A stretch of 64,000 nucleotides of DNA from Lepidurus packardi (Eukaryota; Arthropoda; Branchiopoda; Notostraca; Triopsidae), in the NCBI GenBank assembly GCA_023053545.1, contig JAKZAN010000007.1, positions 5,332,001 to 5,396,000 on the forward strand. The letters are read 5' to 3'. Below are positions 1-31,609 of the stretch, piece by piece; within the stretch, counting starts at the first letter, position 1, and the number at the start of each line of letters is the position of its first letter. Made by a program: the position numbers and the translations under genes. Below the pieces are notes generated by a model. That model did not search any database, was not told the origin of the DNA, and was given only the letters and a program-made list of their open reading frames with translations.

Positions 1-3000
1 TTTTGTATCGTCATATGGTGTCCTTGAAATCGTATTTTTTTCTCATAAGAGCCGTGGTTATTTGCTACATACCAAGGCAAACGGCCACATAAATTTTGTT
101 TTATGTCTCGTAAAACTTCTCTAGCTAGCTATGCATTCTAGAACGTATAGAGCTGAGCTTATATGGCAGCCTTAATTTATAAGGTTAGTGCGGTTACTAA
201 TCGTATAAAAGTCGCAGGTATACAAGGCATCTGTTTCAGTTCTATTGTACCCGATTTCGAGCTCAATGTAGTTCTGTAGAGCTGTGTTACGAGGCTACTA
301 CACCCTCATTCTCACCAACACGAGATAAATTTACCCTAGACCGTCTTCCAGACGACCAGGCATTAACGCTTTTTTTCTTTTCATAGCTAGACTACCCTTT
401 TCGCCATATTTGGAAGTTGGAATCTGCGTGAGCTCGTTACCTTAAAGAAGCGGCATGCTAAATTAGTGTGTTAAAAACTGAAGCCAGCAATTGCACATCA
501 TACGAAGCTCGCCTAAAACAGACTTTCTGGCGCTTTACAATACTGGGTTCGCTTTTTATCATCTGCTTTCCCCCTTTTTAAACCAAGGCAACTAAGGTGC
601 CGACAATGTGACCGGTAAAATAAATAAGAGGCCAATGGCCTTTCTTTCGGCCTTTTACCTGTTTCATTGGAAGACCTTGGCCACTACAGAGGACCCCATA
701 TTAGCAAGCCCTTGGCTTTGTGCATCAGAGCTCACTGTCACAATTTTAGTGTGTCTTGCGGTCAAGGGCAAAGAGTCAAAGCGTTTGGCGAGCAAACATA
801 CTGCCATAATGAATCAAAAGTTAAGGAGCAGTATGCAGTGGCGTTGAATGCTCAGTGAACCGAGTTTTCCACTATACTAATCCCAAGGACTGCTTTTCTT
901 TTTAGGAGGGGAAGCTCTTTGTAGCTGTATAAGGCTGACATTACTGCTTGAGCCTTGACTCTTTCGCACAGGTTCTTAAAGGTTGTTGGTATTTAACGCC
1001 CGGATGTTGAATCACAAGTTGGATTTAAAACAGCATTCCTGGACTTCCGGCTGTATTTCAGCGGAGCATTGCCGCAAAAGTTAGTCTTTCTTCTTCCGGT
1101 TATTAGTGCTTATTTACGTTGTCAAAGAACAGGGGAGCAGTTTTAAAAAAAATTTACCATGGAACTTCCACATCTTAAATCCTTGGGAAGTAGGGGAAGT
1201 TTGGCTCCATGATTAGTGCAGAAATTACGTGTGGGAAGCTTCAGTATGGTTCTTTGTCTGTTAAGCTACGAGTCAGACTAACACTTGGATGTGCTAGAGG
1301 TGTGCGTCTCGTTATCTTCCAAGTTTCATGTTACTCTGTAGATGTTATTGGGTACGAGTAGGCTTGTGCAATATGTTACTGCTTCTCTTTTGTGAAGGTG
1401 TCTAAATAAGGGGAGGTAGCAACATGGTTCTTTTTCTTTTGTTTAAATCACACCAGTGTTTTATCAAACGAATTGTTGAGAATTTCAGCCGGAATTGCCA
1501 TTTTAGATGAAGAACCTGTGTAGGGTGCGGACGCACCTGGCTGTTTAGCTCCCAGCGAGGTGAACTTGAACTTGCATTGCCGTGCAGCTCACACGTGAGA
1601 TTCGCAAGTTCCCCGAACTTGAAAAAGGGAACAAACCCGAAGTAAAATTTTGCATGAACAAAAAGCTTCGGGGAAGTGTAGGAAAGGAAAATTGGTTGCA
1701 GACGTAATGCCTGGTTTACTCATTTTTAGACGGAGGAAGTTCGTGCCGTAAAATTTTACATGCGAGGTACCTGTACATCAGACGCCCTTTCGCAAGCCGT
1801 GGTGTGCAACCTCTCCACCCTTGACTTATGCTAATGAACTTGCGGACAGGGCCTGATAAAGGGCTGGCAGCTATAGTTAAAGCGTGCGATGCAGTTCACG
1901 CTAGGATGCCATGCATCTCTCGTCCGAAAGGGAAAGGGAAGCCAATTGCGGGGTTTTTTGCAATGTAGACTAGGTCCCCAGTCCGTCACCACTGCGTGAA
2001 TTGGCAGACATCCATAACAGCCTTCACTCTCTATTTAGGGTTGGTCAGGGTCTTGTAATGAAGATCTACATACATATGCATATTTATATTTCTGGGATTG
2101 TTAACTAGAAGGGTTTTCTATTGTATGCAGTTTACAATTATTAGCATGGTCTAGCATTGCAGTCAAATGAGCAAGTCGTTTAGAAATGAGGCTAAACCGG
2201 TCCCGCGTGCTGTTTGCGACCATATTCGTGCGCAAGCGCTCTATACCGTCTACTTTAGTTTAGAAAGAGAGCTGGAAGCGTTCCACTCTATACTATCCGC
2301 ATCTCGTTTTGTTCACGTCAAGTCTCTGGTGCCGGTCTGCCAGCCTGCGTGAGTGGCGGTGCTTTGCGTAGACACGATATTCCGAAGGGAACCGGGACTA
2401 GCTGTATGTTGTATGGCATTCCATCTCGCGTAGTGAAACTAGAAATCGTGCAGTTGTAGGAGAACGTGGAACGTGGCTGGCTGGTGGCAAACTGTGTGGA
2501 GCTCAAGCAAGTTGCAAAGACAATAGGAAGTGTGATACAATAAAAAGCCAGGGCAAGTTCTTCACGAATTTAGATCCCCGTTATACGCTGGACTTCAGAA
2601 AGTGGCTGTGGCTCGTTTTGTTATTTTTGAAAGCTCGCGGTGGGAAAAAGAGCTGGCTCATTGTGGGATGCTGGCATTGCTCAAGTCTGTTAAACTAGCT
2701 ACGCCAAAGTAGTGATTGGAACGTGGTGAGTAACACTCAATGGCCATGTGCTTCGGCGATCTTGATGTGTGTATACTCCAAACTTTGATTAAGCTAGTGC
2801 CAAAAGGTGCGAGAATTTTGCCCGTGACGCATGCCTCGCTACTTTTTCCATTTCTGCTCTCGACCGACTCTTGGCTCCTTTTCTTCTGCATGTGAGACCC
2901 TTGTGCGTAAACTGGGGTCGATGCCCGGGTTACTCGACTATTCTGATGTCTCCGAGCGCTAGTGCCGACCATTGATAATTCAGTGTCAAGTCACTTTTTT

Positions 3001-6000
3001 GCTTTTCGCCAGCTTTTTGCTCTGGATATCATCATCTATGCTTAATTACAAGCTTATCAGATTCAAAGAGCTTGCCCGCTTCTTGTCTGTTTCATACCTG
3101 AATACTAAGTTTTATGTGTTGAGTTGCGAATTTCGTGCTACTCGCTTCTTATAATCCTAAAAACAATAACTATTTCTTCGGTGCTAGCATAGGACGAGCA
3201 CATTACCCTTGGCCGGTTCTCTAACAAAAGGTCAGGCACCTTAATCGCAGAACCCACGGTTAAAAGCAGGGAAATGTCTGGCATGCTAAGTAGCGAAATT
3301 GCAGCAAGGTCAATGAAAATTCGAGAAGACGTGCAAAGAATTAACTATTAGACGAGGCAGTTTTTAAGTTTCAACCATTAGTGCTTGCAGCTTAGTAAGA
3401 ACACAGGAAAATAATCGTTATATTTTCGCATAAACCAAATGTTTGCATCTTGGGCAACCTTATTACGTCAGGAATTTTGGTATGTGGCTGGTAAACAAGT
3501 TCGAAGGCACGACATTGTGGCTCCTTGGAACGGTACCAGACACAGGAAGCAACCAACGTTATTTTATTTTCAGTTGATTTTTAATTTTATCACTAAGTTT
3601 TTCTTCCAACGGGGGTTTCATGCAAACATGCGAAGTTTCAGACAAGTCATGTGATGCGTGTTTTGCGTACGGTCTGACACGATTAAGACCTTTTGTTTGA
3701 ATAGATACCTTCCATTGATCGCGTCGTCGTACATTGTCTCAGCCTTGTTTTTCATGAAAAGAACTATTCTATAGTCTCGTCTTTGGCTTCTTTCCAGGTT
3801 TGGCTTGGTCAAGTGATTCCATTAAAGGGCACCAAGTCGACTTAGCGTTTGACTTCCCGCACTTCAGCTAGCTCTCCGGGAGAGTTTTGTTCAATTTATA
3901 GTGCGTGATTGTCTTTGTGTGGTTTCTTCATCCCCCCCTCCCCCCAGTACCTTTCCTCTTGAGTATTCTCGAGAGGAAACCGCCTTACTACAACGGATTG
4001 AACGATGATCATATCCAAGGACCTTTTTTTGCTCGGTGACCAAGAATATTTTCGGCTACCGCGAGACGATCCCAACAGAGCCATGGCCCGAGCAGTTTCC
4101 CGGTAAGTTAAACGGTTTAATCACCTATTCTGCCATTGTAATCCATGGTACATTGTACAGGTTTACGCATATTATTGTGGTTTGGTAATTTTTATCGCAT
4201 TCAGTACGAGGTTGGAGGTACTTAGTCTGTCATGAATCGATCAATCATCCTCTAGAAATCGCAAATCGTTGGTCGCTTTGACTGCTTGATGTATCCTTAG
4301 ATGTGCGGTATATTCAGCCATTAAAGGCTCTCCCTGCGGTTTAGCTGTTTAATTTCTTGTGACATTGAAGATATGGACAAACAGATGGGTTTGTTGGCCA
4401 GGAACAACAACTCTGTGACGTCCCTGGCCAAGATTTATGGCATGTTGAGACATTCGTTACTCGGGGTTTTCCGCTGTGTAAGATAACCGCCCTTAATATG
4501 TTAATGGACTGGAAGAGAAACAAGGGACTAAAGGCCATATTCATTTTCAAGGTGACCTATTCCGGAATTGTAATTGGTAACCACTTTTTTATAGTAAGCG
4601 GGCTAATTAGCGAACGTTGAAAGGTTCAGTTATGTGTTCGTAGTGAAAAAACTTTTCACAGCCGGCTTTTTCAAACAGTGCACATTTCGCTATAAATCTT
4701 GAAATTCAGGTTTCTTTAGCTCGTTCGACAGGCCAAAGTACGGGGAAGTTTCCCGACAGTTCCTTGTCGCCATACAAGAAAAAATTCATCGAAAAAAGGA
4801 GGAACGGAAAGACAAAAATGCTGAAACGAAGGTTGAAAGCATTGCCATGCAAATTAGCTGGCCGTGGTATAGTAGGAAGATATGCGCACACTGCGAAAGC
4901 CAAACCTCACCCATATGGCATTTCCTCACACTCGATTCCCATTATGGGTTTTGCGTAGCTTCAACGAATCAATCCTAAATCATGTGATTTTGGGTAGGCT
5001 TTTCCGTTTGTATAGCGTTAAGTTGTTAAATTGTTTATTAAATTGGGGTAAAAAGCGTGCCTGTTTTAACAAGAAACGATTATGTGCCGAAAGTAATGTT
5101 AGGAAAGCAGGTATACAATAGTGCTGCTTTGCGTTTGGTTTGAGCTACTAAACGCGGCACAGCAACAGCCAAAACAGGATTCCACCTGTCTTCGCAACTT
5201 CCCTTGCCGATGTGTTACGAATCATAGTCCGAGACTGTGAACGAGAGAGGGCGAAAAAAGTCCCGATGGTTTAGCTTTAGCATCGTTGGGCAACATTTCG
5301 CATAGCAAGGGCATTGATACTCTCTCCAGGAAGACCTTGAAAATTTACATGCTGAACTTCTGTTATATCTTAGACTTGTCTTAGGATGTAGGTATAGGAA
5401 CCAAGCCAAGTCTGTAGGTTTTCTGGTCTGCATTATAGCGTCTACGGCCTTCGCTTTAGCAGGTTTGCAAGCTGCAGCACCGTACATACAGTATAGTATA
5501 GTAGTACGGAGTCCTGCTCGTCTAGTGTAGTTAAAATACCGCTCTTTAGTTTCTGGTCTTTCCGGAAGGTATTTTCTCTCGCCAAGGTCGAAAACCGTCC
5601 GTTAACTTTTTTTTCTTTCTTTTTCGAAGTATTTTTTATCGTTAGCCTTCTTTTCTTGGTCGTCCCAACCGTACAGAATTGAGATTGACCTTACTCAAGC
5701 TATAAAAGATGAAAAAAAAATAATGTTGAAATCCAAAAAACCACTTGTCATTTGCATATAAAGCTAGACATGCTTCTACCAAGAGAAGCTAGAACTGTGA
5801 CCTTGACAGCGGAAACCGAGTAACCTGTATAGCGTTATGTAGTACTGCAGGTAGTATCTCCTGAAGTTCCAAAGTCTGTCGTGAATGCATATTTTTTATC
5901 AGCTGCTTATCAAGCAAAAAAATCGAAGACTGCGTTGCGTATGTCTTTTAAAAAAACATAGATTGAGCATACCTTGAGAAGTCCATATAAAGACCATCAG

Positions 6001-27550: not shown

Positions 27551-28654
27551 TTAAAGGGGGAGTAAGGTTTCAAAATGAAAAAATATATGTTATAGAAGAG
27601 ACCAAACTACATGTTCTGGCTGAAGAACCCCTATGTCAATTATGCATATTAACCGAGTAATTAATTATTTAGCGGTTTTAGCCCCGCCCCTTTCCGCCAA
27701 AATTCAAATTTTCCTATCCTTATAACATTGGCGGACAGTTGGCCGGAGGCCTAGCGACTTTACCTATGAACGCATTGAAAATCGATCCCGGTTCTCATAG
27801 GGACCGTACCGTGACCTTTCTTTTGAATGCTTAAGCAGTTTTTTACGCGCTTTGGTTACTTCACAAACTTAATCACAAAAAACCACTTTTTCTTCGCGCC
27901 ACGACGGGAACGTTCCGTTCTGTGGCTCAACGAACGTCAACGCCGCGAGCGTGGAGCTCACAACCTGTGTCAGGATAGCCTGCCGGACTAACATATTGGG
28001 GAGAGCTAGGCTAAGAAGCCTTGGAACGCGTGTTATCCAAAGTCGACATTCCAAAGCGTGGTCTTGTATACGTGCTGACTATTCGCTTGTTTAGTTTATT
28101 AGTTTGTGTCTTCATAAGCTTTGAATTAAAATGAGTGATAACGATAGTGATAGTGATAACGACTTTGGATAACACGCGTTCCAAGGCTTCTTAGCCTAGC
28201 TCTCCCCAATATGTTAGTCCGGCAGGCTATCCTGACACAGGTTGTGAGCTCCACGCTCGCGGCGTTGACGTTCGTTGAGCCACAGAACGGAACGTTCCCG
28301 TCGTGGCGCGAAGAAAAAGTGGTTTTTTGTGATTAAGTTTGTGAAGTAACCAAAGCGCGTAAAAAACTGCTTAAGCATTCAAAAGAAAGGTCACGGTACG
28401 GTCCCTATGAGAACCGGGATCGATTTTCAATGCGTTCATAGGTAAAGTCGCTAGGCCTCCGGCCAACTGTCCGCCAATGTTATAAGGATAGGAAAATTTG
28501 AATTTTGGCGGAAAGGGGCGGGGCTAAACCCGCTAAATAATTAATTACTCGGTTAATATGCATAATTGACATAGGGGTTCTTCAGCCAGAACATGTAGTT
28601 TGGTCTCTTCTATAACATATATTTTTTCATTTTGAAACCTTACTCCCCCTTTAA
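27551..28654. mobile_element. TTAA-bounded foldback (long inverted repeat) element
   Basis: Two arms of 495 bp (27551-28045 and 28160-28654) are inverted copies of each other, with one mismatch noticed by eye (GGTTTTAGC versus GGGTTTAGC) and no length change. A 114 bp spacer separates them. Each outer end is TTAA followed by AGGGGGAGTAAGG inward, so a TTAA target duplication with terminal inverted repeat fits. TTAA duplication is typical of piggyBac-type transposition, but the ends do not start with the usual CCC, so the family is inferred only. The spacer contains a start codon at 28131 opening a 13-codon acidic frame (MSDNDSDSDNDFG), which may be the beginning of a parental ORF cut off by the inversion. 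No transposase is present, so it would be non-autonomous. Confidence 0.85.
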
Positions 28655-28856: not shown

Positions 28857-31609
28857 ATGGCTGCGCGTGCCCCCAATCCTAATTATTCCAGCCCTAGCCC
28901 AAATGTTACGGTACATGCCCAAGGTCCAGCGGCGTCTTCCAACGTCAGTGGCGTCGTCGGAAATATGCCTTTAGCAGCAGGACGCGGGTATAACGCGCAG
29001 CCGCCCGCCATGAGACCATATCAGGGACCGGCGTACGGACAGCCACCGGTAAGCTATACGCTATAGCTATTATCACAGATTGTTGTCCTTTAGATTGTTA
29101 AATACCTTCAAGAGGAGCCTGAGCTTCCGATACGAATAATGGTGTGGCTTTATTATCCCAATTTACAGCTTATTATTTTCTATTACTGTTAAAAATTGGA
29201 TATTAACTGGTAGTTTTGGAGAACTGTGCCTTTACGTTTGTAGCTTATACTTTTGATGCATTTTTGTGTCGCATGTTCTTTCTGCCACGGTTGACAAAAG
29301 CCTTCAAACGTGCACTAGTTTCCATTAACTAAACAAAGCTTCTGTCTTGATTGACGTGTATGGCTTCTTACCTACACGGTTGACTCGCAGCTCTCAGGAA
29401 TTGATAATAAGTCCTTGTTTTGGTGTAAGGATAGAGCAGTGGTTAATCGAATTTTACAAAAAGCTCTTAGAGTTGGCTCTGTTTCTCGTCGATACATGTT
29501 TAGAGTTGGCTCTGTTTCTCGTCGATACATGTTTAGTGCTACTATATTTCTTATTCTTTAGCGTCCAGGCTTCAATGCTGGACCTGGCATGGGTGTGTCT
29601 AGTCCTGGACCAGCCCCAAATCCAGGAATGATCCCAAGACATCAGCAGTCACCTACTTTTGGACAAATGAGACCAGCAATGCCCATGGGTCCCCAGCCGG
29701 GCGGCAAAAGGCCAGGAGATTCAAGGCCAATGCCACCCCAAGCGAAAATGTAAGCAAGTGCGATCGCTAAGTACAGAACCTTGTTCTAATGGCATCTTAC
29801 TATAGAGAATATGGACCAGCCAAAAAGAAGAAAAAACTAGCCGATAAGATTCTACCCCAGAAAGTCCGAGATTTGGTGCCCGAGTCACAAGCCTATATGG
29901 ATCTGCTGGCATTTGAGCGCAAGCTAGATGCTACAATCATGAGGAAGCGCCTGGATATCCAGGAAGCTTTGAAGCGTCCCATGAAGCAAAAACGTAAACT
30001 ACGAATTTTCATTTCCAATACCTTTTACCCTGCCAGAGAGCCAACTGAGAATGAAGAAGGCTCTGTGGCTTCTTGGGAACTGCGTGTCGAAGGAAGACTG
30101 TTGGAAGATGCCAAGCCGGGAAGTACCACGACGAGCGCGTCAGATCCTTGCAAAGTGAAACGCAAGTTTTCTTCCTTTTTCAAATCCTTGGTGATTGAAT
30201 TGGACAAGGACCTTTATGGTCCAGACAATCATCTGGTCGAATGGCACAGACAAGCATCCACTACTGAAACCGATGGTTTTCAGGTTAGCTACCCGTAGGA
30301 ATATTTTACGAAGAAGTTAAATTTGCATATTTTTAGGTTAAACGCCCAGGAGACCGTAACGTACGCTGCACAATATTGCTACTATTGGACTATCAGCCAT
30401 TGCAATTCCGACTGGATTCGCGGCTGGCTCGCTTATTGGGTATTCATACCCAGACTCGGCCCATGATCATTTCAGCCTTGTGGCAGTATATAAAAACGCA
30501 TCATCTGCAAGACGCCAGTGAGCGCGAGTACGTCATATGTGACAAATACCTGGAAAGCGTTTTTGGCTGCAGCCGGATGAAATTCGCTGAAATTCCACAG
30601 CGTTTGAGTTCACTTTTACATCCCCCGGATCCGATTGTCATCAATCACATTATTAGTGTGGAAGGCACTGAAACAAAGAAAACAGCCTGCTATGATATTG
30701 ATGTGGAAGTGGATGATACACTCAAGACCCAAATGAATAATTTCCTTCTGTCGACAGCATCTCAGCAAGAAATCCAGGTATACCTTTTTTTTGTTTACAG
30801 TCTGAGCTGTCTCATTATTTCTCGTGAACGGTATGATCTTATGGAAAAATTGTCGTAATATTTTAGAGCTTGGATTCCAAAATCCATGAGACAGTCGAGA
30901 GTATTAATCAGCTGAAAATAAGCCGCGAGTTTTTCTTAAGTTTTGCCAAAGACCCACAGCAATTTATCAACAAATGGCTCATCTCGCAATGCAGAGATCT
31001 GAAGGTACGTTTTCTTACTGTTTTGTGTGTGATTTTTGTAATTTTTTTTTTCTTTGGAACTTTTAATTTTTGTTTCAGTTTCCTTCTAACTTTCAACTAG
31101 AACCGCCCTAGGGATTTCTTAAGATTACTTTTTTATACCTAGTAATTTAGCATGAGTCTGCAGTCAGTTTTTTGTCCGTATTGCGTACGGAAGTGTTTGA
31201 CTAAATTTCTTCTTCAGTGCTAAAAGCGTAACTAAAAGTTTGAGACTTAGCAAGATTCATGGAACCATACATCCATCCAATGGTTCCGTCTCTGTTGTGT
31301 GAAGTTACTCTGCTTGTTGTTGATTGTAAAAATTTCTAGGTTATTTTGTGAGTTATTTTTCTTTTAGCTGCCTCGATTTTCTAGTTTGGGTGTTTTCTTA
31401 CGAGCCCAAATGCGTTTTCTTTGTCATAAATCTTTGTTTTTTGTGCCTTATAGACGATGACGGACGTAACAGGCAATCCAGAAGAAGAGCGTCGAGCCGA
31501 GTTTTACGATTCATCTTGGGTACCGGAGGCCGTCAGTCGATACTTTTACAACAAGGTTAATCAAAAGCGTGCTGAATTGGAACAAGCACTGGGCATACGG
31601 AACTCTTGA
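28857..31609 (+). CDS. SMARCD1: SWI/SNF subunit SMARCD (BAP60/BAF60)
   Basis: SMARCD is an accessory subunit of the SWI/SNF (BAP/PBAP) chromatin remodelling complex that links it to transcription factors. Exons are 28857-29048, 29562-29749, 29806-30283, 30337-30777, 30867-31004 and 31454-31609, 1593 nt in frame, 530 aa, close to the usual 500-550. The N-terminus is Pro/Gly/Gln-rich. From about residue 125 comes the family core: [35 protein letters not shown], then [11 protein letters not shown] and [14 protein letters not shown]. The SWIB domain is at roughly residues 305-380 ([33 protein letters not shown]). The C-terminal helices are also conserved ([19 protein letters not shown]). Arthropods have one such gene; the symbol is the vertebrate orthologue group. 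Its promoter must lie in the roughly 200 bp after the foldback element, or inside that element. Confidence 0.95.
29468..29533. repeat. 33-bp perfect tandem duplication in SMARCD intron 1
   Basis: Two adjacent identical 33-base copies, 29468-29500 and 29501-29533 (TAGAGTTGGCTCTGTTTCTC...), lie about 30 bases before the acceptor of exon 2. The perfect identity suggests a recent slippage event. Confidence 0.9.

Follow-up and report, generated by a model that had tools for sequence, protein, structure and literature searches.

The palindrome found in a 64,000-nucleotide stretch of Lepidurus packardi DNA (hereafter, the window) is best explained, with a probability of roughly 0.94, as a non-autonomous, MITE-like foldback that would have arisen by deletion from a Kol0-type Kolobok transposon of the same genome. 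Comparison of assembled sequences allowed us to establish the anatomy of the element, its parents, its target-site duplication and several copies that have different flanks and one common deletion junction. According to our working model, an internal deletion in one of the parents, parent A, would have brought together 599 bp from the right end and, beyond 10 bp of filler, 495 bp from the left end, and this deletion would have left little but the two repeats and hence a near-perfect palindrome. The foldback would then have been moved in trans by the parental transposase, by cut-and-paste, into TTAA sites, one of which lies upstream of SMARCD. We infer such mobilisation by the putative parental transposase to be the likely course of events.

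Structure of the foldback element

The original prediction of a near-perfect 1.1-kb foldback with TTAA ends and about one difference between its arms was borne out at positions 27551-28654 of the window, and the same structure was found at four further loci. The element is 1,104 bp long and carries TTAA at either end (27551-27554 and 28651-28654), from where both ends read inward as TTAA-AGGGGGAGTAAGG. With TTAA counted, each arm measures 495 bp; the left arm occupies 27551-28045 on the plus strand and the right arm 28160-28654 on the minus strand, with a spacer of 114 bp in between (28046-28159), and the inverted repeat makes up 990 of the 1,104 bp. Automated repeat detection returned 500-bp arms at 99%, which overshoots each end by five bases. 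The sole mismatch between the arms is located at arm position 126 (T at 27676 versus C at 28529), where the right arm has the changed base and the left arm keeps the parental one. No open reading frame of 120 aa or more overlaps 27551-28654, no tandem repeats were reported inside the element by a tandem-repeat finder, and an Rfam scan of the window at gathering scores gave no matches.

The foldback ends 202 bp before the putative ATG of the neighbouring gene (28857), in agreement with the predicted distance of about 200 bp to the SMARCD start. The putative first coding exon (28857-29049, plus strand), which lies outside the element, was assigned by reading and has no Pfam match. Farther downstream, an exon at 29789-30298 matches SMARCD chains of solved complexes (E 4.4e-75); judged by its sequence, the gene beside the foldback is SMARCD. 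A perfect 33-bp tandem duplication is present at 29467-29536, downstream of the putative first exon and ahead of the conserved one.

Full-length parents and deletion junction

A search of the 108.6-Mb assembly with one arm, as had been proposed at the outset, gave at least 58 matches (best 40 of 274 candidates scored). It revealed other TTAA-flanked copies as well as pairs of matches that delimit long elements, the full-length parents, which encode a putative transposase. Parent A is 5,502 bp long and is represented by two complete copies, L031 (contig C49) and L033 (C3), which are 99.84% alike; one end of a third copy, L039, is short of about 700 bp. In parent B, which has a length of 5,584 bp, the complete copies L063 (C4) and L064 (C114) are one mismatch apart, and a third copy, L065, runs past the end of its contig. 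The terminal inverted repeats of both parents measure 517 bp with the TTAA. Within single elements, the two repeats differ at one position in L031 (511), at two in L033 (134 and 346, counted without the target bases), at one in L063 (220) and at none in L064.

When read inward, the right end of parent A (L031) is identical to the left arm of the window element, and the match continues into the spacer up to right-end position 599 (28046-28149). The 10-bp filler follows at the deletion junction (28150-28159), and the right arm then consists of the outermost 495 bp from the left end of parent A, with the one changed base at 28529. This make-up implies an internal deletion of a long-repeat transposon with no new inverted duplication. 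A simple inverted duplication of one transposon end was ruled out, given that the parent has 517-bp repeats at both ends and that the element joins a right to a left end with filler.

These comparisons bear on the initial suggestion that the element is either young or under gene conversion, which was right in part. Similarity of the arms was inherited, given that the inverted repeats of 517 bp are near-identical in the parents themselves (0 to 2 differing sites in the four complete ones). The mismatch at position 126 is common to four identical copies at different loci; it therefore predates their spread and has been left uncorrected in them since. Over longer times, the repeats evolve in concert (see below).

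Among the relatives of parent A, L032 (C33:6470-13561) is a deleted copy with a nested element of about 5.65 kb, which has inverted ends GGGATCCCGGAAT and lies at a TA. One of its open frames, of 421 aa, is found at 100% identity in six places genome-wide, in addition to relatives of lower identity, and two open frames of the nested element had no Pfam match over the cut-off. In L038 (C8) and L040 (C46), a lone left end of parent A lies inside 5-kb stretches that are 99.9% alike; near L040 there is also an open frame of Helitron type with 1,528 aa (PF14214, E 2.2e-22).

Target sites

Target sites were counted in 30 two-ended elements, which have 30 distinct left flanks; the one-ended elements L038, L039, L040, L041 and L065 were left out. 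TTAA was present on both sides in 29 of the 30, which supports the predicted TTAA-targeted insertion, and TGAA on both sides in the remaining one (L033). This TGAA pair shows that the four bases are duplicated target and not element sequence.

Three of the four complete parents (L031, L063 and L064) lie in arrays of the 20-bp satellite GAATTAATTCAGTCCGTAAG, many units of which contain TTAA. At both parent B loci, L063 and L064, the satellite register is kept, by our own reading, if one TTAA is counted. At L031, joining the flanks gives a sequence 4 bp different from the next satellite unit; there is thus no clean empty site at this locus, which is less telling than L063 and L064 and counts against our explanation. 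A single genomic copy with no empty allele had been named beforehand as evidence against a mobile element. The several copies exclude the first half of that statement; as to the second, a search of the assembly for an unoccupied form of the window site recovered nothing but its two flanks, which likewise counts against a transposon derivative.

Genes of the parents

Just inside the left repeat of the parent lies the gene of a putative THAP-DDE transposase, and just inside the right repeat a KolX-like gene, both directed towards the interior. In parent A, a THAP domain is encoded by a plus-strand open stretch spanning 737-964, whose ATG is at 746 (PF05485, E 6.1e-9, 37 bits versus a cut-off of 23.9). 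Downstream of it lie two long open pieces, at 1680-2714 and 2718-3392, and the gap between the open pieces reads by eye as a short intron beginning GTAAGT. The long pieces contain the motifs GDG..CDSPGHCAKYC, TDRH, FDVWH, HVADRH..CCEH (H2CH-like) and HTGEIE. In relatives from the same genome with 32-37% identity, GDG, DSPGH.AKY, TDRH and FD(V/I)WH were found again, as were the H2CH-like stretch and, from the last motif, one glutamate, and the cysteines flanking the first motif are not kept. A Pfam search of the parental DDE exons matched no transposase family and no piggyBac model; the motifs, read by eye, and their conservation point to a DDE transposase with DxxH and an H2CH zinc motif.

The first codons of the minus-strand gene of parent A, 63 bp inward of the right repeat, read MSDNDSVSS. 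Two pieces of this gene were aligned to PF20478 (P2RX7_C), one with 37.1 bits (3.9e-9), above the cut-off of 23.5, and the other with 21.0 bits (3.4e-4), below it. Judging by these two pieces, parent A probably encodes the KolX-like protein that characterises Kol0. The spacer of the window element retains the stretch preceding this gene, its ATG (28131, right-end position 581) and its first 19 coding bases, all within 28046-28149 on the plus strand. We had considered this ATG as a transposase start, which was ruled out, as it begins the KolX-like gene on the opposite strand.

Given that the two parental genes point inward from just inside the repeats, any promoters retained in the foldback would be convergent across the spacer and might produce double-stranded RNA. 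A hairpin RNA of 500 bp is possible in principle, as an RNA fold prediction for the foldback pairs 493 of the 495 left-arm bases with a minimum free energy of about -1010 kcal/mol. The palindrome could accordingly be viewed as a host hairpin-RNA locus, kept since its transcript feeds an siRNA pathway, and both this stable predicted fold and the plausible convergent transcription would be in line with such a role. We nevertheless regard a host locus as very unlikely, because the palindrome belongs to a set of many interspersed copies with target duplications, and a mobile element accounts for these with no need of a host role.

For the transposon derivative that we favour, the superfamily was judged by published descriptions. 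Kolobok elements have TTAA duplications, RR..YY termini and C/DxxH between the second D and the E (PMC9587614), and their THAP, H2CH and AG termini are described in PMC6004289; the THAP DNA-binding domain is usual in Kolobok, not universal. All 30 two-ended elements end in AG..CT, that is, in 5'-RR..YY-3', and these termini agree together with TTAA both with the Kolobok definition and with the T2-MITE motif TTAA+AGGRR (PMC9587614, PMC6004289). KolX is encoded by the Kol0 lineage and resembles the C-terminal region of P2X7 with its cytoplasmic-ballast fold (PMC9587614). According to the same source, a protein resembling part of KolX occurs in a few piggyBac families, so that KolX alone is indecisive between the superfamilies. 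As far as tested, the parents show the marks of a Kol0-lineage Kolobok, by comparison with these descriptions.

The doubt about a classical piggyBac element that had been voiced from the terminus was justified, and the element appears to derive from Kolobok. The termini of piggyBac elements are CCY. An origin as a piggyBac element or piggyBac MITE, from the other large superfamily that inserts into TTAA, would account for the TTAA that flanks 29 of the 30 two-ended elements on either side, but it is extremely unlikely and was rejected. The termini are AG..CT, and RR..YY termini mark out Kolobok (PMC9587614); moreover, THAP, DxxH and a protein similar to P2RX7_C are encoded by the parent, and no Pfam model of piggyBac matched its DDE exons.

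Copies and sister forms

The junction of the 1,104-bp type is present in at least five places, namely the window, L042, L043, L044 and L045, which have different flanks and target duplications at each. The first four are letter-identical and have the arm mismatch in common; L045 is one base longer (1,105 bp) and lacks it. A sister foldback of 1,067 bp has a 183-bp spacer, which we used as a query for further copies (best 40 of 43 candidates scored). The full spacer was found at 99% or more in at least 19 places, among them three A-armed and 14 B-armed 1,067-bp copies, L066, which is a B-armed 1,053-bp copy, and L041, which shows one arm only. In addition, L037 represents a single 1,064-bp type and L034 a 2,680-bp deletion. 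The B-armed 1,067-bp copies are identical in 13 of 14 cases (reference counted), with L075 differing at one spacer base, and we take this near-identity as a sign of recent spread. The foldback has no coding capacity, its ends are common with an autonomous-looking element and it exists in several interspersed copies, as expected of the Foldback/MITE type.

Palindromes are a known artefact class, and doubling of one arm in a chimera, made during assembly or amplification, would fit arms differing at one site, but a chimera is virtually ruled out, on the assembled sequence, by the recurrence of one junction at five or more loci with different flanks (four of them letter-identical) and target duplications at each of the five, by the 1,067-bp sister with its 19 or more full-spacer matches and by the non-palindromic parents, which bear the same inverted repeats.

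Arms change in pairs

The sister foldbacks allowed us to compare arms of different type around one spacer. L036 (A-armed) and L035 (B-armed), both of 1,067 bp, have the same deletion junction, an identical 183-bp spacer and 40 arm differences. All 40 are mirrored, corresponding to 20 positions altered in both arms, and there is no mismatch between the two 442-bp arms of L036 or between those of L035. One B arm equals the parent B repeat up to position 442 and the other up to position 448, and the spacer is parent A sequence; the spacer of parent B itself is 93-95% alike and carries an insertion. B arms around an A-type spacer imply that both arms were replaced with the middle unchanged. Drift within the palindrome had been considered for the version with 96% arms and was dropped once parent B showed the same arm sequence.

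Mirrored differences were also observed between the full-length parents. When L031 was compared to L064, 27 of the 28 A/B differences in the left repeat were mirrored in the right repeat, and the two repeats of one parent are about 99.6-100% alike. Eleven of the 27 mirrored differences fall within the first 61 bases (positions 19-61), adjoining the cut site; this is a region in which transposase binding is expected. For the transposase exons, comparison of A with B gave a dS of 0.34 and a dN of 0.076 (ratio 0.22; 557 codon pairs, common terminal stop skipped). By region, A/B divergence is lowest, about 1%, at element positions 518-940 (THAP exon with the sequence leading up to it), rises to 5% for the repeats and reaches 13% for the first DDE exon. 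This uneven divergence, by which the parents are mosaics, points to exchange or recombination between families A and B. Together, the long repeats evolve pairwise here, in concert over longer times, as reported for Galileo.

Regarding the direction of change, the A-type interior favours A-armed copies as the earlier form. Exchange of arm pairs by conversion through the palindrome is plausible as one of several routes, which include two independent conversions and a recombinant parent. We also put forward a tentative scenario, although we would place the odds against it: the 1,067-bp foldback with an A spacer might have taken B ends on both arms by conversion of one arm and subsequent arm-to-arm copying through the palindrome, whereupon its driver would have changed and its copies spread. 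The excess of B-armed over A-armed 1,067-bp copies (14 versus 3; best 40 of 43 candidates) is cited with this reading. If it were true, the palindrome would be a device that lets a non-autonomous element swap its driver in one step.

Other observations in the assembly

COX1-family genes with open frames were noticed on the small contigs C52, C214 and C43, of which C52 and C214 look bacterial. Many nuclear COX1-like copies have TGA codons (C6:697216, C4, C2, C38), and one nuclear copy is open under the invertebrate mitochondrial code across its COX1 part, bar one stop, and seems to be of arthropod type. These findings suggest bacterial companions and numerous nuclear mitochondrial inserts.

Discussion

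The parents described here resemble Kol0 Kolobok elements such as Kolobok-1_XT in their TTAA duplication, RR..YY termini, THAP domain, DxxH, H2CH-like motif and KolX-type second gene (PMC9587614, PMC6004289), and their AG termini are those of the full-length Kolobok copies of Xenopus (PMC6004289). They differ in having 517-bp repeats that are nearly identical within an element, whereas 16-base end stretches given for Xenopus in PMC6004289 differ between left and right. Xenopus also harbours T2-MITEs, presumed non-autonomous Kolobok elements, which have in common with the window element TTAA plus terminal AGGRR, the lack of autonomy and subfamilies with homogeneous young members (PMC6004289). 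Unlike the T2-MITEs as presented in that source, the window element consists of inverted repeat almost throughout, and its genome was found to contain full-length relatives whose ends match.

In its architecture, the foldback is reminiscent of Galileo and other Foldback-type elements of Drosophila, which likewise show long inverted repeats, derivatives consisting of two repeats only and chimeric copies (PMC3573991). In Drosophila mojavensis, Galileo chimeras with two repeats of one subfamily around the interior of another have been described, with 98-100% repeat identity within a copy (PMC3573991). Galileo belongs to the P superfamily and makes 7-bp duplications, in contrast to Kolobok with TTAA here, and its repeats are internally repetitive, while no tandem repeats were reported for the window element. 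As Galileo shows the same kind of chimera, we file the foldback with already known kinds of element. Judging by their titles, the two papers of the library searched that pair "Kolobok" with "foldback" are on satellite DNA; a Kolobok foldback described alongside its parent may therefore help annotators.

A palindrome beside the promoter of a chromatin gene can now be described from its parent and deletion junction through to its target site, its copies and its sister forms. One compact genome contains the full-length relatives along with derivatives formed by deletion and derivatives with swapped arms, all nearly identical, and this offers a clean natural setting in which to study what keeps long inverted repeats similar and whether both ends of a palindrome can be traded at once.
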